From Hesseltinella vesiculosa (lineage: Eukaryota > Mucoromycota > Mucoromycetes > Mucorales > Cunninghamellaceae), in NCBI GenBank assembly GCA_002104935.1, contig MCGT01000038.1:124001-188000 (forward strand): DNA of 64,000 bases. Reading direction: 5' to 3'. Positions 13,791 through 62,100 of the stretch are shown here, piece by piece (position 1 is the stretch's first letter; each line of letters begins with the position of its first letter). The notes under the pieces were generated by a model. That model was not told the origin of the DNA. It saw only the letters and a program-made list of their open reading frames with translations, and did not search any database. The position numbers and the translations under genes are program-made.

Positions 13791-16069
13791 TTTGTAAAGC
13801 ACAAAAGAAAAAGTCGACAGAAGTTGTGTCCGCAGCGCACTTGCCAAAAAAAAAAAAAAAAAAAAGCCACAAGCCAAAATTCCAGCCAGCCATGCTCTCA
13901 AAAAATGGTCAATTGAAATACTCACACTGTACAGTGCAACCGCGATTAATTTGAATCTCATTGCTTTATTTTTAGCTGATACTGATGTGTCTATTTTTTT
14001 TTTTTTCCTTCTGAGCTACTTAATGGGGAGATGCTTGTTCCAGTAAGTTGTGAGCTTGTATGGCCGACTGACCGTCCAAGACACCCTGAGCTTGAACTGC
14101 AGTGCTCTTGCATCTGAAGCATGACCAGGGGTTCTCTCCACTTGGAATGCATGTTCCAGTAAGTTGTGAGCTTGTAAGGCCGACCGACCGTCCATGACAC
14201 CCTGGGCTTGAACTTGAGTACTCTTGTATCTGAAGCATGACCAGGGGTTTCCAAGGAGCTACCCAGAGGAATAGAGTCATTCAATGTCTCGTTTACCGTG
14301 TGAGAACGTATTCTGAGTGTGACTTCAAGTAAAATGTTTAAAATAGGCACTAGAGTTCACACCGTCTTGGTTTTGGCGAAGCCAAGGTTCAGAACACAAC
14401 AAGCTATGATCTATGCCATGATCTTCTCTGCCTGGCTCTTTTTTCCAAAGAGAGCATTGATATGAACAAGCTTGGTGGCTGTCTTTCTTTCCAGATTCAT
14501 GGTAATTGCATTGCAACATTTGGATGTGTCTTAAACCTCCTTTTCACAACTAACTTCTGATCTAGGGTTTGGCATTACATTTTACCTCATGCAATTGCAG
14601 CATACGGGTCTTTACACGATGATTGAATAGGACACTTGGAATTTCCTCGATCAATCAACGACCTGCCTACGTTCATCAATCTCTCAGCACTCACAACCCT
14701 TCTCCGTGTTGGCGACGCTTTTTGGCGCTTGTGCCGCCGTGCCAATGACCCCTCCATCATCACCTCACGTTCCACGCCTACACCTTCTTGCCTTTACGAA
14801 GCAATATCTGCTACCAAGTGCTCTTCTCGTGAGTGTTCAATTCGCTTTGAAAAGTAGGCATAAAAATAAAGGACACACCCACCACCTTTATCTTATCCGT
14901 TTCCCTGATTCTTTTTTTTTTCTCAAAGTAAAGGAAAGAAAAAAATACATCTATCATTTATAATGAAATTACATGTGCAATTTCATCACGTCATGTTTTT
15001 TTTTTTTTTTTTTTTGTACGCGTGAATGAGATAATTCAGAGCGATTGCCTATTACGACATTTGTCCAAGCATTTGTGAGAATGCCCAACAAACCCTTTGA
15101 AATCATTCAGCCTCTAGCAACTGGAAGCTTCGCTGATCCGGGTCATCAACGTTTCCTTCTCGAGAAACCTGTACACACCATGGACTTTACGTACCAAAGT
15201 CTCGCAAACATGTGTATGGAATGTCTAAGACCCTGTATTTCACGCACCCACTTACCCTTGGCACAGCGTCAACACCATGGCTGAATTTTTCAACTACGTG
15301 GTTTAGTTTTTTACCATTGTCACAGTTGCCCTTTCGTTGGACTCCATCATTGCCATGTTGTATTCAAATTCCGCCATTTATTTAAAACTCAACTGTTCTT
15401 CCGCCCTCTTTCTCTTTCCAGTGGATTCCAAGCGAAATCATGGCAAGACTCTCACCCAAGCCACTAGTCATGCAGGCACTGGGGTTGGTACAAGAGTGGG
15501 CAGTCACTTTCCACTAGGTGGAAAATGGCAAGCATATCTTGACAGTATACCATCGTCCTTGTCACCAATGAAGCCCGTACGTCGATGATACGCCCTTTCT
15601 GCCGCCACCGCATCATTCACCTCCGCAAAACTGTTTATAGCAAGTCGAAACTGAACCTGGGCACCTCTTTCTGCGTCAACCTCTCCTGCGAAGAGTACCA
15701 GAAACAAAGAAACAGCTTTGGTCGGGACGCCCTTTCCTTTACCTGCATTGCTTTGTGGTGCTATGGACAACTGGCGAACTGTGAAATCTTATGAGCGACT
15801 TTGAAATCTTCCGAACGACTTTATACAAATGCACCATGCTCTGTAAGTGTGAGGCGGCGGCTACGTCATCAAGACGTGAAAACTAAGTAAGTATATCATA
15901 AAAATAGAACACAGCACCATCTCATTTTTTCCCCTGCTGTGCATCTTCGGTGTCCTTCCTTTCTTGAAATTTTTGTAAGTCCATTTATACTGAATTCACC
16001 CCATTTTATGCCACTTTTGATAGTTTGTTTTACATCTTTTCTCTTGGAGTTTGCGACTTTTTTGTTTAA
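13791..16069. other. 2.3-kb intergenic region with a 116-bp tandem duplication
   Basis: Contains the duplication listed below, poly-T runs (about 14999-15015) and short frames on both strands (about 14636-14857, 15045-15284 and 15504-15770) of no recognisable family. The frames do not join at convincing splice sites. It could hold old transposon debris or a fast-evolving gene; I cannot tell which. Confidence 0.4.
14037..14250. repeat. 116-bp tandem duplication (two copies, second incomplete)
   Basis: Copy 1 starts at 14037 and copy 2 at 14153, both with GTTCCAGTAAGTTGTGAGCT. They stay alike through CTGAAGCATGACCAGGGG at about 14130 and 14247, differing by scattered substitutions. On the minus strand the unit encodes a repeated peptide (GRSVG.TSSQLTGT). 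Whether it is translated is unknown. Confidence 0.8.
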
Positions 16070-36404: not shown

Positions 36405-37592
36405 TTAGTTGAGCCGTGAATAATTTTTTTTAGCAGGCAAACCAATTGGGCGAACCGCTAAATTATTTTCAATTGCGCGCGAAAGTAGAATCAAGTGCAT
36501 GCGAAAGTTAAATCTACTGCACGCAAGCCAGATATTTCATTGCAGTTAGGTGAATCGCGAAAAAAAAAAAGACGAGGACGATATAGAAAGGGGGCTGTTG
36601 GAATTTGGCCAGGTTGGAGCACACTGGAGTAGCAGGATTTTGGAAAGGTTGGAGAGCACTGGAGCTGTTGGACATTGGATAGGTTGGAGAGCACTGGAGC
36701 AGCTGGATATTGGACAGGTTGGAGAGCACTGGAGCAGCTGGATATTGGACAGGTTGGAGAGCACTGGAGCTGTTGGATTTTGGACAGGTTGGAGAGTACT
36801 GGAGCTGTTGGATTTTGGACAGGTTGGAGAGCTCTGGAGCTGCTGGAATTTGGACATTTGGATTTTTTTGGGCAGGTTGGAGAGCACCGGAACTGTTGGA
36901 TTTTGGGCATTTGGATTGCTTGGACTTTGGACATTTGAATTGTGTAACTAACCCAAAAAATAAGCAAATAAAAAACAAACCCCTTTTCGCTACAAGAATT
37001 AATTTAGAGCAATTTTGCACTGTGAATTTTTATCGAATGGTCTGGGAGTCCCCTGGCGAAAATGGCCGATTTTTCGTTTTTTAAGCTGGTGAATCGGAGG
37101 TGTCAAAATAATACTGGTCGAAAGTTGGCTGGGCGACCTTCACCAATCGACTTGAGTTTTTCAGTACCAACATCATTTATGCATTTGCGCTCCCTAACAA
37201 AACTTCACATGGATCTAACACTCAAAAGTGCTGGGTAGCATCTTTTTTTTTTTTTTTAAAATGGAAATGTGGAAACTGGTGGTCAAATTCAATCGCCGCA
37301 CAATGGCGGTCATCAGCCTACCTAACCTCGATATTAAAAAGTAATCCAAAAGCCAATGTCACCCTTTACAAACGGTTCTAATGCTGGTAATATCTTCTTT
37401 TGATGTTGTGCCTGTTTCAATGTCACTCTCATCAGCTTGGCTTGACAAAAGCAGCTCAAAAATGTAGGTCCTTTGGAAGTGGCAATAATGGTTTTGCGTG
37501 CACTTGATTTAACTTTCGCGCGCACTAGAAAATAATTTAGCGGTTCGCCCGATTGGTTTGCCTGCTAAAAAAAATTATTCACGGCTCAACTA
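36405..37592. mobile_element. Non-autonomous DNA transposon with long terminal inverted repeats
   Basis: The left end 36405-36518 and the right end 37480-37592 are inverted copies for about 100 bp: TTAGTTGAGCCGTGAATAAT, TTTTTTTAGCAGGCAAACCAA, GGGCGAACCGCTAAATTATT, GCGCGCGAAAGT and ATCAAGTGCA can be read inward from both ends with few mismatches. No transposase frame lies between; the interior is a 35-bp minisatellite plus unique sequence. The outermost bases are consistent with a TA target duplication (TA before GTTGAGCC and after GGCTCAAC), as in Tc1/mariner-type elements, but this could also be part of the repeat. It sits between COX18 and a Prp6-like fragment. Relatives occur at about 8.3 and 23.3 kb. 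Confidence 0.85.
36605..36935. repeat. 35-bp minisatellite (about 8-9 copies) inside the element
   Basis: Unit AGGTTGGAGAGCACTGGAGC plus TGTTGGATTTTGGAC, with copies starting at 36681, 36716 and 36751 and onwards exactly 35 bp apart. Flanking copies are more diverged. The unit has no stop codon in several frames, so the period of 35 produces long but meaningless frames on both strands. Confidence 0.9.
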
Positions 37593-38026
37593 AAAACCTG
37601 ATTCCCGCCAAATGATGGTGGAAATCCGGTACAGTAAAACAAATTCGCAAGGCGAAGTCGCAAGCCGTTGCCGCATTTGGAAAGGGTATTGCTACCATTT
37701 GGGAAAGAATTCGCTACTGCCGATCTTGTGAAGAAGGGAGCCGCGTTTTCAAATAAAAAAAAAAGAGTAAGGTTCGCTTGATGGTATATGGCTTTCATGA
37801 GAAGTGCATTTGCAGCATCGTGCTTCCCTTCTTGAGATTCTAAATGGATAGCTTGGACCCACAGGCGAGGTTCCATGGGGTAGTCAGCCAAAAGTTCTTG
37901 CAGGATGGCCCGTACCACGGCGTTGGGGATGCTGTCCAGGCTATCCAACATGGTACGCAAATGATCAACAGCATTGGAGTAGCCAGGTATTTCGGGAGGA
38001 CCGTTGATAGGAGGTGGGGTTGTCAT
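37593..38026 (-). pseudogene. Fragment resembling the HAT-repeat C-terminus of Prp6
   Basis: From the ATG at 38026, YPMEPRLWVQAIHLESQEGK and HDAANALLMKA match the pattern of Prp6/PRPF6 HAT repeats (P.LWLE..RLE...G....A..LM.KA). After a T-rich stretch, NTLSKCGNGLRLRLANLFY again resembles the following Prp6 block (DALKKC..DP.VL...A.LFW), with the intervening text eroded. The frame runs into the inverted-repeat element's edge and stops at about 37586. It is likely a broken copy. Alternatively it is the 5' exon of a HAT/TPR gene cut by transposons. Confidence 0.45.
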
Positions 38027-38164
38027 TGTGCCGTGCTGGATGTGGGTGAAGAAAAAAAAATTGCAAAAAGCGGCTCATTGTGATTTTTAAACCTCGCACG
38101 CGACTTTTTTTTTTCCTTCTCTTTTTGCTTATTTTTTTTTTCACCCTTCCAACTTCCTTGCTAC

Positions 38165-41100
38165 ATGGAGAGAGAACAACCGCAACGCCGCCCTTACATA
38201 GGCTCAAAGCACCACCTCCAAGCACTGTACATCACCTTGATAAATGTGCCAGAGCCTGTTTACACCAACCTAACAGGGAACTTTCAAGAGTTCCAAGCCA
38301 ACAACGGCCTGACACAAGAGCAAGCCATCCTTGTACTCTCATGGGCTGAAAAACACAGATCAAGTAAGTCATCTGGGATAACACTGCTTCAGTTTTTTTT
38401 TTCCTCACCTTTTCATCTTCTTGAAACCCTCTCAAGCTCTTCGATTGTGTCAAGATTGCGGATCTCCTCATCACCTGACTCGCAGGTCGCGAGATTGTCC
38501 ATTCCACGACCGTCAGCAAGGACGTAAATTTCTGCCTTCATTTTCATGTGAAAACCTGCTGACCTCATTTTTTGTCACTTGTCAGCCATCACGGCTACGA
38601 CAGCTAGGGACCCTGATACCGCGGCTGACATTCGAAGAATGGTGCAGCAAGGTGCCCAACAATTTCAGGTGGCAGCTGCCAACCCAAACCCGCCTGAAGT
38701 TTGTCCTACCTGCAATCTGACTGGACACTCAAGCTCTGCAAATCGTGCCTGCCCATTTCATCCCACAAGCAAAGCTGAATTTATGAAACGCCACATGCCT
38801 GGCCATGAACAATACACACGAATCAAAAGCTTCGAAGCTTTCGTGCGAAAGCCATTTGTGGACCAGTTACGACAAGCAGTGTCCGTCAAATCTGAATATC
38901 TCAAGAATGTCATGACTCGCCTTCAACTGTTCATGTCAGATTATGCCGCCAACCATGCCTCTGATCTAACCCCCTTCCTGCTCCACCAAAACGGCCTCTA
39001 CCTGGTCTCCCAGCTCATACGTGGTCGCCGTGATGAATTTGTCACCAAGTCTGCCCAAGACCCTCGTGTTCCTGCTTCCTTGCTCCGCCATTGGGACAAT
39101 GATTACCATGTCACTTTGGCCCCCTATGACACCTATGACCAGCCGGGCCACACTGCGGAATTGACCATGGCATGCAAAGAGCAAGCAACGGCAAACAAAA
39201 ACCACATCAGCAAGAACTTCGAAGGACGGGTGAAAGCCTTTATCAAATTCCGGTTCGCTGTCGATGGCGAGGTAAAGCAGAGGTGAAAAAATAAGCATGG
39301 GTTGACTTTTCCGTGCTTGACTCTCTTCCATTTTTTTTTTTTTTAGTTGCCTAATAGCAGTGCCATGGGTGCCATCAAAGCCTATGCCTACGACAACTTT
39401 GCGCTCCGCCAACCAGATCCATCACAGCCCATTCCCGAAGAAATCCCTCACCACCATCGACGTCTGATGAATGATGTGATCATTGAGTTACGAGAGATGA
39501 AGCCATCAGAAGAAGACATCACCGCACAGACATTGCATGCCGATCCAGCGAAATACCTTCCCTTGCTTCGAAGTATCCTCGACGTGTATGACTATCATCG
39601 ATCTCTGCCCGAGACTGACGATGATCCAGTCACATTGCCATCATTCACGCTTCTCCCAATGCCCTCGAACCGCCCACGCTTTATCACCATCACAGCAGAG
39701 AACCTACCTTCCCTTGTCAACCGTCCCCACCACCAAATAAGCCGTCAAACACCCCGTCGCGTCCCACCGTTTATGGAAAAAATGGATCTCTTCTGGGACG
39801 TTTTCCGCCTTGACAAATATGGTTATGGAAGGCAAGTTCAGGAGACACAGCGACAAAAAAAAAAGGGGGGGCAAGTGGGCTAATTTTATACATGACTTTC
39901 TAGTGTGGATGATGTGAACAATGAATGGCATTATGGTCGTATGTTTTCTGGTGTGTTGCGCACGGACGGTGTCCAAATGCATGTCGTGTTTGCAAGACTG
40001 CCAACAGGACCAAAACCACCTCTACTATACGCACAAGACTTTGCCAATACGACTTACCCCATGCACCAATATGCGCTGTCGGGCACAGACCCTGGACGTC
40101 GAGCGGTCGTCACCACGTCCTTTGGATCTGGATCGGAGCCACACCCCATACGTAGAGTGTCTGCCAAGGAATACAAGACGATAACCAAAGAGACCGTACG
40201 TCAGAAGCACCTGAATGACAGGAAAAATAATGTGCTCTTACCTCTTCCTGGCGGCACTATGGCAACGATGGCGACGATTGAATCGGAAACGCCGACGACG
40301 ACCACATGCGACGTAGTTGAATTTCGGCAAGCCGTCTCGCACAAACTCCGCCATCTGACGTCGACAATGGCATTTTATGGAAGCCACTCATCGAAAGCCC
40401 GATTTGAAGCAAAGAAGGGTCAGCAACGAGGAGCCGCGGCCTGTGTCAACATCATGTTGACCGGGTCTGCCAAATATTGCAAGGCCAAGCGAATGAAAGC
40501 CAAGACGAGGAAAAACCGACGCCGGCGTCGCAAGTTGAGCCAGGAAAAGCGGGCAATCAAGCAGCAGATTGTTCGTTCTGACTATGTTGCTGTCGATACC
40601 CAGATCGCTGATGTCGACAACCAAATCGCTGTCCAAGAAGCCGCCATGGATGCCATTGTTTCCGGGATCATGGATCTCGACCTGTCACAAAACCAAGCCA
40701 TCCAAAGCGCACTGAACACACAGGTGACCGCCCACGAGCTCATGGTCAACACACTGGAACAACATCGACTGCTCCTGAAAAACCAAAAGGAACAACTGCA
40801 ACAAAAGTTCCTGGAACTGAACCATAGGTAGGAAATGGAATAAAAAAAAAAGGGAATCTGACTATTCCACCTCTTCTTTTAGCCCAAAAAAGTAAACCTG
40901 AAGTCGCCCTTGGAAAAAAAATCGTGCTCACTTTTTTCTTCCCCTCCTAGTCCTATGAAGAAACGATACCATGGCTCCCGCCCTCAGCAACAAGGTCCAT
41001 CCTTGGTGGCGTTTGGTGCTGCAATGATTGGTCGCGATGGGGCCAGAATCCGAGGGCATGCAGTTGGACGAACGGATGCTGTCCGAAATCACCTACTCGA

Positions 41101-41495
41101 ACGCCAGTCCCGTGCCCTTGCTCTGGTACTGCACACAGACGAATACTTGACCAGCCAGGCAAGTGCTTTTTTTTTTTTAGTCAGAAGACAAGTGACAAAT
41201 GTACGATTTTTCTTCTTATATCTAGGCTTGCAATGTCTGTGGAGGCCAATTGTCACCCGTTGCCAACAACAACAACCAACAAGGCATCTTTGGCCTGAAG
41301 CACTGCACTGCCTGCTGCATGTTTTGGGACCGAGATGCATGTGCAGCCAACAACATGCTTTGGGCTGCGCTCTCAACGCTGGAGGTTGGGGCCCGGCCTG
41401 CTCCCCTCGCACGACCAGCTCCTGGTGGTCCACATCATCGACGTCCGACTCTCCCCCTCATCTCCCTCCCACCGCAAAATTGTAAGGAAATCTGA
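38165..41495 (+). CDS. Fanzor protein (eukaryotic TnpB homologue, RNA-guided nuclease family)
   Basis: Spliced product of 952 aa from seven exons: 38165-38363, 38437-38523, 38586-39271, 39347-39831, 39904-40827, 40951-41158 and 41226-41495; total 2859 nt, all in frame. Introns 4 and 6 are GC-AG (AG|GCAAGT, CAG|GCAAGT). The N-terminus has two identical-spacing zinc modules, C-x2-C-x4-H-x7-CPFH (residues 71-90 and 135-154), followed by a helical region (EYLKNVMTRLQLFMSDYAAN). The nuclease core: LRTDGVQMHVVF; RuvC-I SGTDPGRRAVV (Asp548); SSKARFEAKKGQQRG; RuvC-II region SLVAFGAAMIG without the canonical Glu; the alternative Glu858 in TDEYLTSQ; target-nuclease-type zinc finger Cys865/868/890/893; and RuvC-III WDRDACAANNM (Asp900). 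A basic NLS-like stretch lies at about 679-703. Family members are guided by a short RNA from the transposon end. No transposase accompanies it here. Confidence 0.92.
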
Positions 41496-41785
41496 TAACT
41501 TGATTGTTTTATGTGAACTCATGTTTTTATTTAGAGTTTTTTTTTATTTTTTTTATACTACCAATTAGTCTTGGTTACGGATGACTTTTTTTTTTTTCAT
41601 CTGTTTGAAGTGTAGGCTTTGCCCGATACAGGTAAGAATCGAGAGAGGGTGAAAAAAAAAATCTGGCTTGGCACTCACTGTTCGTTTTCGTCGCTCCTGC
41701 TCTACCCTCTCTTGATTGGGTAAGTACCAACAAAAAACAGTTCGGATTGGTCAACCTTCATCAAGCTCACCCCACCCCTTCCCTT
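41380..41785 (+). ncRNA. Candidate omega-RNA / right end of the Fanzor element
   Basis: Overlaps the last 115 nt of the Fanzor frame and runs about 290 nt past the stop. It contains blocks that are also kept in the coding-dead copy at 30852-31141 (see that entry), including ATCTGTTTGAAGTG and GCCCGATACAGGT, and ends near TCAACCTTCATCAAGCTCAC, after which similarity stops. In TnpB and Fanzor loci the guide RNA is made from the 3' end of the gene and the adjacent transposon end. Position and conservation fit this; transcription and structure are not shown. Confidence 0.45.
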
Positions 41786-41865
41786 TTTTAACTTTCTTAG
41801 GTTTCTGCGCCTTTTTTTTTATTTGCTCTTTTTGCGACATTTCCATTCCTATCAAGTGTAACCCA

Positions 41866-42787
41866 ATGAGAATCTACACCAAGACTGGGGACAAGGGTAT
41901 ATAGATTAGCAAATAACACTCGATTTTTGAACCTTACTCGTAGGAACATCTAGTTTATTCAATGGCGAAAGACGAGCTAAGGATGATGACATCTTTGAAG
42001 CACTAGGAACTACTGACGAGCTCACAAGTCATATTGGGTAAGATGACTGCGAAAAACATTCTTCCAATCTTGCAGCATAACCTCTTTTTGTTCATTCAAT
42101 GAAGTTTAGCCTTGGAATATCTTGAAGACAACGGGGAAACATTTTTGATAGAATGCCTTGAAAAGGTAAGCAGTATGCCGTCGAATATCGTTTGCTCAAA
42201 GTCTTTTTTTTTCCAGGTGCAAAGCTGTCTGCAAGATATAGGCTCAAATATTGCCACCCCTCGTGAACGAGCTAGTGAATGTAGACGAGGTCAAACTCCT
42301 TCATCTTTCTCTGGAGCCAGCTACTCAAACTACTTAACTTATTTGTGTGTTGGGGGGGGGAATTTAGATCAAACGTCTTTTGATATAGATGCCTGTCTGG
42401 TTAAAGAGCTGGAATCATGGATTGACAAGATCGATGAGAGCTTGCCCAGATTGACGAAATTTATATTACCGGTATGGAAATGCTGCTTTTTGATTATTTA
42501 TATTTGATGATGTTTTTAGTCTGGCGGTAAGGCAAGTGCAGTGCTCCATGTTGCAAGAACAGTCTGCCGCCGAGCTGAACGTCGTGTTCAACCTCTGACC
42601 CGAGACCATATTTGCGACGACAGTGTTGGAGTATACTTGAACAGGTATGAATGCGTAATATGGATATACCAAGTATAGTGGCCGCATTTCTCATTTATTT
42701 AGACTGAGTGATTTTTTATTCAATGCTGCTCGACTCACTGCCAAAAATGAAGGCAAACGAGAAAAGATATACACGAAGCCTCAGTAA
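41866..42787 (+). CDS. Cob(I)alamin adenosyltransferase (PduO/MMAB type)
   Basis: Makes adenosylcobalamin from ATP and cob(I)alamin. It starts [11 protein letters not shown], continues [113 protein letters not shown] and ends [14 protein letters not shown] with [13 protein letters not shown]. TKTGDxG, LGTTDEL and [12 protein letters not shown] are the ATP- and cobalamin-site motifs. About six exons. No clear mitochondrial presequence before this ATG; an upstream exon could supply one. Its presence implies B12 use, for example by methylmalonyl-CoA mutase, which is unusual among fungi. It begins about 80 bp after the Fanzor element's end. Confidence 0.92.
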
Positions 42788-58219: not shown

Positions 58220-58729
58220 TTTAAGAGAAAAAGGAAAAGTATTCAAGCCTCTTAGCAACTTTCACTTAAAATTTCGAAAAGAACCTGGGTTTCAAAAAGG
58301 GAAGAGCGGAAGCACTGGCTATCTCTTTTTGAATAGATGGTGTATTGTTGCTGATTCGGGGATCAGAGATGTAGTAACTATGTATTAAAAAGGCTTTTGG
58401 CTAGTCTCATCATGTGGTGGCGTTGTGTTTAGCGAAAAGGGATTCCAAAGCTGCGCTTTCTCAATTACCGTGGGCGACACAAAGTAGACAATGAAATGGT
58501 GAAGATACTTTTGTCAGGCTGGATTTGCTGTCAAGAATACAGTATGAAATACAGTATTTGAAGGCGGTGACTTGCTCAGTATGTTCGTCTTCCCAGAAAT
58601 GTGGTTTGACAAGGCACATTTCAAATTGAGATGAAATGACAGTATGGATATTCTCTTTGCAAAGAGTAAAAATTGCTTTGGGTTTGTAAAGAGATTTATT
58701 CACAGGTCAAAAATAAGTCATAGAAATGG
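58220..58729. other. Intergenic region with a doubtful small frame
   Basis: A minus-strand frame at 58461-58703 (80 aa, starting MNKSLYKPKAIFTLCKEN) lies just 3' of the Pop3-like gene. No homologue is recognised and codon usage is weak, so it may be 3' UTR. Confidence 0.3.
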
Positions 58730-61881: not shown

Positions 61882-62008
61882 GTGTAGTGTTGGGTAGCTA
61901 ATCGCACAGAGGGGAAAAAAGCAAGCATCATTTTAATGCCCTTTCCATACTTAAGCACTGTCATCATCAACGTCAACATCAACTCTATTCATCTTGTCAA
62001 AAATATGG

Positions 62009-62100
62009 GTTCATGAAACGTCACCTGCTTAGTCGTTTCCAGTATATCTGAACCAAGAGCTTCGAAACATTAGTGCGAAAACCATTGATGAACATGCGAA
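62009..62100 (+). pseudogene. Relic of a Fanzor gene (N-terminal region)
   Basis: Plus-strand translation reads FMKRHLLSRFQYI, stop, TKSFETLVRKPLMN. In the intact gene at 38779-38864 the same span is FMKRHMPGHEQYTRIKSFEA, followed by FVRKPFVD. The DNA agrees too (ATGAAACG.CAC.TGC, AGCTTCGAA, GTGCGAAA.CCATT). A TGA breaks the frame and the rest is lost. Confidence 0.8.

Follow-up and report, generated by a model that had tools for sequence, protein, structure and literature searches.

What does an apparently intact Fanzor gene in a fungal genome encode, and from where would its product obtain a guide? Fanzors are eukaryotic RNA-guided DNA nucleases descended from TnpB. The question is raised by positions 38165 to 41495 of a 64,000-nucleotide stretch of the fungus Hesseltinella vesiculosa, a member of the Cunninghamellaceae in the Mucorales (GenBank assembly GCA_002104935.1, contig MCGT01000038.1, positions 124,001 to 188,000 of the forward strand), called the window below. 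There an earlier interpretation of the letters alone, the sequence-only reading, had described a seven-exon Fanzor. We found that the locus very probably encodes a Fanzor1 RNA-guided RuvC nuclease, the sole intact gene of a 4.2-kb element of Tc1/mariner type that inserts at TA. The main new point, whose novelty is provisional, is an RNA module followed by a likely terminal intron. The window's own copy is referred to as C32; other C labels denote contigs of the same 27-Mb, 85-contig H. vesiculosa assembly.

Fanzor identity and active site

In order to establish what the gene encodes, we inspected its catalytic residues. RuvC-I D548, the four cysteines C865, C868, C890 and C893, and RuvC-III D900 all lay where the sequence-only reading had placed them. 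The canonical RuvC-II Glu site reads VAFGAAM, starting at 813, and lacks Glu; a relocated one, E858, is present six residues ahead of C865. This matches the Fanzor fingerprint as described in PMC10711439, DPG in RuvC-I together with a Glu that precedes the zinc finger by six residues. RuvC-I reads T547-D548-P549-G550, and D548, P549 and G550 are invariant in all three rows of the family alignment A3, as are the three catalytic acids D548, E858 and D900. The motif order D...[TS][TS]XX-C4 finger-X(5,50)-RD was also found, formed by D548, T861-S862, the four Cys and R899-D900.

The TNB (PF07282) score of the gene itself, 22.4 bits against a Pfam cut-off of 26.3, was sub-threshold, whereas TNB was matched by all three family members scanned (best 1.7e-07) and the family could be linked to Fanzor1 by profile comparison. 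With hhalign, the family was aligned to the canonical Fanzor1 group of the same genome (loci L001, L002, L003 and L007) with an E-value of 2.8e-18 over the TNB part, where E858 and D900 were aligned, and of 9.6e-13 over the RuvC-I part, where DPG was aligned. The canonical profiles in turn match the solved Fanzor1 structures SpuFz1 (2.9e-7) and GtFz1 (0.0095). In NCBIfam the C32 gene had no match, and TnpB models were matched by one or two relatives. Protein-database searches, in which only word-sharing candidates were scored, returned two and three proteins, all from H. vesiculosa; the public proteins of close copies are 96-97% identical to the C32 protein, and P0003 is a 45% relative.

Several observations count against this assignment. 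The spacing from D to [TS][TS] is 312 in the C32 protein, above the range of 125-275 given in 2013 (PMC3627910). A PDB search with the gene itself returned no Fanzor1, only the TnpB-like protein L79 at an E-value of 0.69, and one with the family profile again returned no Fanzor1, its four matches being LaTranC with E-values of 0.035 and 0.11 and two of lower significance, so that membership rests on the intermediate profile of the canonical group. An AlphaFold2 model of P0003, built from a three-sequence alignment, had a mean predicted local distance difference test score of 39.5 and was discarded. Taken together, the DPG and relocated-Glu fingerprint, TNB in the family and the profile homology through the canonical Fanzor1s uphold the identity proposed earlier; judged by homology, the gene is a genuine new Fanzor1 lineage, large and divergent.

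Gene model

The open frame of 952 amino acids described by the sequence-only reading was reproduced by joining 38165-38363, 38437-38523, 38586-39271, 39347-39831, 39904-40827, 40951-41158 and 41226-41494, and its six introns were recovered in relatives. A frame longer than 850 amino acids can be obtained from 144 splice combinations of the locus; the open frame by itself is therefore weak evidence, and relatives were used as the test, by protein-to-DNA spliced alignment of eleven sequences. C23a, C35 and C33 showed the same six introns in phases 1, 1, 0, 2, 2 and 0, with zero stops and zero frameshifts, at 430/928, 430/928 and 417/924 residues identical to the C32 protein (46%, 46% and 45%). 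C15 had the same introns and phases with one stop. All six introns were present in C64b, with a stop and frameshifts, in C12b, where the fifth has a different donor and lesions occur too, and in C62, with one extra intron and four frameshifts. C12a was only partly covered; in the orientation tried, C3 and C7 could not be aligned meaningfully. The predicted gene model is fixed by the introns of its relatives.

All exons lie on the plus strand. Exons 1 (38165..38363), 2 (38437..38523) and 3 (38586..39271) were placed by the frame and the relatives' introns; exons 2 and 3 hold, from 38448 and 38702, two N-terminal motifs that we take to be zinc-knuckle-like. Exon 4 (39347..39831), which agrees with the frame, the close copies and the relatives, is followed by a GC-AG intron (39832-39903). 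Exon 5 (39904..40827) carries D548 within TDPGRR (codon 40088-40090), and exon 6 (40951..41158) carries E858 (41141-41143) and precedes a second GC-AG intron (41159-41225). Exon 7 (41226..41481) holds the C4 finger and D900 (41334-41336); for exons 5 to 7 the residue check agrees with the frame. The GC donors of introns 4 and 6 read GCAAGT in all four close copies compared (C32, C45, C64 and C15), where C23a, C35 and C33 have GT. Of the public models of close copies, P0001 loses the frame after DEYLTSQ, while the Glu segment is absent from P0002; both misrepresent the region of the catalytic residues, apparently through missing the GC-AG introns.

A seventh intron is predicted at 41482..41534 (+). 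Left unspliced, the frame runs to 952 amino acids; spliced, a T|AG stop is formed. The equivalent intron yields a T|GA stop in C23a, C35 and C33, and the same intron is found in C15. With this intron, which lies at the stop codon, the product is probably 948 amino acids long.

The carrying element and its ends

Comparison of C32, C45, C64, C15, C30 and relatives delimited a Fanzor-carrying element of 4227 bp at 37632..41858 (+). Its left end near 37632 is common to the copies, and GTG precedes TA in most right ends, C64 being different; distant relatives have similar ends. The element lies between unstranded TA target sites at 37630..37631, which is common to a neighbouring repeat, and 41859..41860. 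Its terminal inverted repeats (TIRs) are an imperfect left one at 37632..37655 (+) and a right one at 41832..41858 (-) with one GCGAC motif, the inner limit of each being approximate. A TIR pattern drawn from the relatives' ends, with up to 3 mismatches, matched 17 places in the genome, whereas its reversed control matched none; the 17 do not include C32's own ends. TA sites and CAGT/CACT-type TIRs were both found, and TA duplication with TIRs of this type is the mark of Tc1/mariner elements. No empty site for the TA duplication was seen.

No transposase gene was found inside the C32 element, nor any transposase element with the C32-type TIR in the genome, which has at least 164 DDE_3 matches, one of them near locus C33:202358. 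No IS607 recombinase was seen among the open reading frames (ORFs) of the element, for which no separate search was made. Judged by its ends, the carrier is a eukaryotic DNA transposon and not an IS607 element, as befits a Fanzor1. The element further holds a divergent, Prp6/HAT-like ORF of 86 codons at 37769..38026 (-), truncated here and frameshifted in C64. Small divergent ORFs of this kind precede the Fanzor gene in many elements (25 matches in the genome); a relative was scored at 2.4e-5 against hPrp6, summed over repeats, with no single stretch passing alone. We considered whether it might be the start of a transposase and set this aside in favour of the weak Prp6/HAT similarity; it is probably the remnant of a passenger gene and looks like a captured host fragment.

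Related copies, selection and activity

Over about 3.95 kb, identity among C32, C45 and C64 is 99.0-99.4%, and all three have open frames. C15 is 87.8% identical to C32 and has a stop in exon 1. The ratio of nonsynonymous to synonymous substitution rates (dN/dS) was 0.184 between C32 and C15, at a synonymous divergence (dS) of 0.34. Sequence comparison demonstrates purifying selection on the family. The wider family amounts to 83 exon-level matches in the genome, with fragments elsewhere too, and PF07282 has 46 matches, the split TNB of the C32 gene not among them; the species thus holds many Fanzors.

The sequence-only reading held that this copy may be active, nothing in it being broken while its relatives in the window are. 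A search with the C32 protein and the ORFs of nine other loci bore out the second half of this argument, returning three broken fragments at 15415-15791, 58442-58519 and 62001-62093. The same fragments fit the idea that the intact-frame Fanzor is functionally dead, being a recent copy of a once-active element in which stops have not yet gathered. The exon-1 stop of C15 and the stops and frameshifts of C12b, C62 and C64b point the same way, as do the right ends: C32 has 17 bp fewer in its terminal stretch than the near-identical C30 and C64, C45 lacks the segment with the splice acceptor discussed below, and C64 has a changed terminus. Against it stand dN/dS values of 0.233 for C32-C45 and 0.304 for C32-C64, though these rest on 23 and 16 changes only, and the intact catalytic residues and compared splice sites of C32, C45 and C64, despite the change of D898 to Gly in C45, two residues ahead of the catalytic D900. 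The right end of C32 is also not clearly defective. GCGAC occurs twice in C30, C64 and the C33-type ends and once in C32, C15 and C45; since C15 and C45 also have a single one, we do not call the C32 end broken, only unproven. We regard a dead element as a substantial possibility that falls short of probable. Because copies differ at the right end, the element need not be active even where the protein is intact; with its frame intact and its family constrained, yet with right ends that vary among copies, this copy may be active.

Other Fanzors of the genome were observed alongside these copies. The fragments at 58442-58519 and 62001-62093 are remnants of a canonical Fanzor1 and of the C32 family. 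The fragment at 15415-15791 belongs with L068 (C57) and L069 (C1) in another Fanzor-like family, whose TIRs are of the C32 type; in it DYG replaces DPG in RuvC-I, yet the relocated Glu is kept (TNEARTSMTCPFC in L069); DPG is described as near exclusive in Fanzors in PMC10711439. L070 (C78:39560-43600) represents a further DPGRR-type family, whose TIR is similar and which, by eye, seems to be related to the C32 family. The C64 copy directly adjoins another Fanzor element (L040, C64:8500-18499) whose right end is interrupted there. Many relatives lie at contig ends, and a subtelomeric location was considered and dropped; contig C32 starts within a Fanzor gene, a sign that the assembly may have broken there (two contig starts seen).

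Structured RNA and a likely terminal intron

Immediately downstream of the predicted stop we found a structured exon at 41535..41631 (+), a candidate omega-RNA scaffold, with hairpins at 41560-41575, 41577-41604 and 41610-41629 that show compensatory changes. Three families (C32 type, C23a type and C33) have the same order of hairpins after the predicted stop, in different letters. In seven aligned sequences 94.6% of 129 cells were paired, and 7 of 20 pairs had changes on both sides; C33 is only partly in register owing to a bulge in the second hairpin. When the partners were slid by 1-3 columns, the paired share dropped to 30-47%. Among 500 shuffles the covariation score and the paired percentage were reached in none, and the number of both-side pairs in five. 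Folding z-scores of four sequences were -1.9, -3.0, -3.5 and -2.4. C32 and C15 are 96% identical in segment 41535-41636; between these two, identity is 81-91% in the seven coding exons, and no other segment compared exceeds 92%. A motif pattern following the hairpins was found at 12 genomic sites, 11 of them at 3' ends or fragments of the C32 Fanzor group and one at C16. All four canonical families inspected (L001, L002, L003 and L007) have a hairpin with an unrelated stem directly before GTAAG. In Rfam no match was found in the window at gathering scores.

Beyond the hairpins lies a predicted terminal intron at 41720..41800 (+), reading GTAAGT..TAG, with a possible upstream donor at 41632. 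It would be followed by a terminal exon at 41801..41858 (+) that forms the right end, and the DNA beyond would be the guide, by analogy with the Fanzor layout described in PMC10432273. In order to examine this pair of signals in other elements, we used a rule written after the ends had been seen: GTAAG[TC] or GTGAGT, then a pyrimidine-rich TAG 46-60 bases from the end, with a 70-base limit. The first nine right ends all agreed with it, as against 0-5 of 2000 shuffles per sequence and 27 of 7510 overlapping windows of the 64-kb region. Of all 18 right ends compared, 14 agreed: C32, C15, C23a, C35, C33, C12a, L068 and L069 (DYG type), L070, L002, and L003, L004, L005 and L008, which are four copies of one canonical family. 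The ends of L001, L006 and L007 were not usable. The right ends form about six diverged groups (C32 type, C23a/C33, DYG, L070, L003 and L002), each with at least one end that agrees. C30, C64, C45 and C43 failed, the first two though their acceptor is kept, as their longer ends put it past the 70-base limit. These donor and acceptor signals are likely to mark an intron that separates the guide end from the structured exon. We infer that the hairpin module is the omega-RNA scaffold and that the flank to the right of C32 would serve as guide.

Several results weigh against this interpretation. The acceptor is missing from the fragment C43 and also from C45, a copy with an intact ORF. The stretch from the two donors to the acceptor is 90.5% identical between C32 and C15 and, 19 gap columns aside, does not clearly change faster than the coding exons. 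Three independent families stand behind the seven sequences of the hairpin alignment, and pair types were no more numerous than in shuffles (299 of 500 reached the observed number), so that this measure gives no support. About 230 bp separate the hairpins from the guide end, more than the 75-150 nucleotides described for the omega-RNAs of three Fz1s in PMC11423790, unless the RNA is spliced.

In a rival reading, the hairpins are ordinary structure of a 3' untranslated region, the splice-like signals are transposase-binding DNA and there is no omega-RNA. To the distance of the module from the right end and the missing acceptors it can add that GGTAAGTT and AACTTACC in C33-type ends could pair together, and that the hairpin before GTAAG is laid out differently in the four canonical families. 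Set against this, the covariation relative to the slid controls points to RNA and not to a DNA site, and the donor and acceptor lie at similar distances in most right ends of diverged groups, a pairing rare among the background windows. This reading is possible, and we hold it to be rather doubtful. The fullest form of the interpretation that we prefer states that the omega-RNA of these Mucorales Fanzors is spliced, with a scaffold exon and a terminal guide exon joined by the host spliceosome, and that one transcript becomes mRNA or guide by a choice between two donors for one acceptor; taken as a whole, it is a tentative and, we think, unlikely proposal.

Two further features of the right ends were observed. 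AATAAA, a motif that could let the 3' end of the RNA fall in the flank, occurs within the last 20 bp of 9 of 18 right ends and is absent from C32, and we did not press the idea that it sets the RNA end, given only these nine and its absence here. The last 138 bp of the C23a and C33 ends are 90% identical in elements otherwise 63% identical, which suggests exchange of right ends.

Proposed mechanism and comparison with known systems

In the proposed mechanism, an intron near the right end would be removed from the transcript, joining scaffold and guide. The Fanzor protein would bind this right-end RNA, and the flank just outside the right end would serve as its guide. By analogy with TnpB and SpuFz1, the protein may cut an empty donor or allelic site beside a transposon-associated motif that contains TA, and repair of the cut site could restore or spread the element, which a transposase from elsewhere in the genome would move. 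That the nuclease is instead kept as an RNA-guided DNA-binding regulator and not a cutter, for which the existence of nuclease-dead TnpB relatives might speak, is very improbable given the three catalytic acids invariant in A3.

The element resembles several described systems. SpuFz1 of Spizellomyces punctatus (PDB 8GKH), as described in PMC10432273 and PMC3627910, shares with C32 the RuvC D/E/D, TIRs, a putative TA site and an RNA encoded between stop and right end (here a candidate). In contrast, SpuFz1 is given as a single ORF of 633 amino acids in a 2.1-kb element (PMC3627910) with a 75-nucleotide scaffold at the right end (PMC10432273), whereas C32 has 948 amino acids, nine predicted exons and hairpins on a separate predicted exon. 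PpFz1 of Parasitella parasitica likewise has a Mucorales host and an enlarged RuvC region, and is described as having an FRI insertion of about 100 amino acids and a 75-nucleotide omega-RNA (PMC11423790). Most Fz1 proteins are put at 600-700 amino acids in that paper, smaller than the C32 protein. PUl-4-type Fanzor1-only Mariner elements (PMC3627910) share the TA site, a mariner-like TIR and the lack of a transposase; they come from other hosts and can be matched by their TIRs to confirmed Mariner elements, while for C32 the search turned up no transposase element with corresponding ends. CRe-1/2/3, described in the same paper, are multi-exon Fanzor1s (5 or 10 exons) like C32, but Helitron elements.

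Our literature searches found no paper on Fanzor and Hesseltinella, and, among the papers listed, none relevant by title on Fanzor and splicing; the word 'intron' is absent from the main text of PMC10432273, PMC10711439 and PMC11423790. In the characterised Fanzors, as described in the cited papers, scaffold and guide adjoin each other at the right end; here a splice-like pair stands between structured RNA and guide end in most right ends, across several Fanzor groups. A genome of this kind opens to direct test the question of how guide RNAs are produced from transposons in a host rich in introns. The locus further contributes a large and divergent Fanzor1 lineage, of which apparently intact copies are at hand for biochemistry.

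Neighbouring sequences

On its left the element is adjoined by the TA-flanked repeat (about 36405-37629), which has long inverted ends, an internal minisatellite and many genomic copies. On its right, the TA lies five bases ahead of the ATG of a cobalamin adenosyltransferase gene (window position 41866 onwards), so that the promoter or 5' exon of this gene may be displaced.

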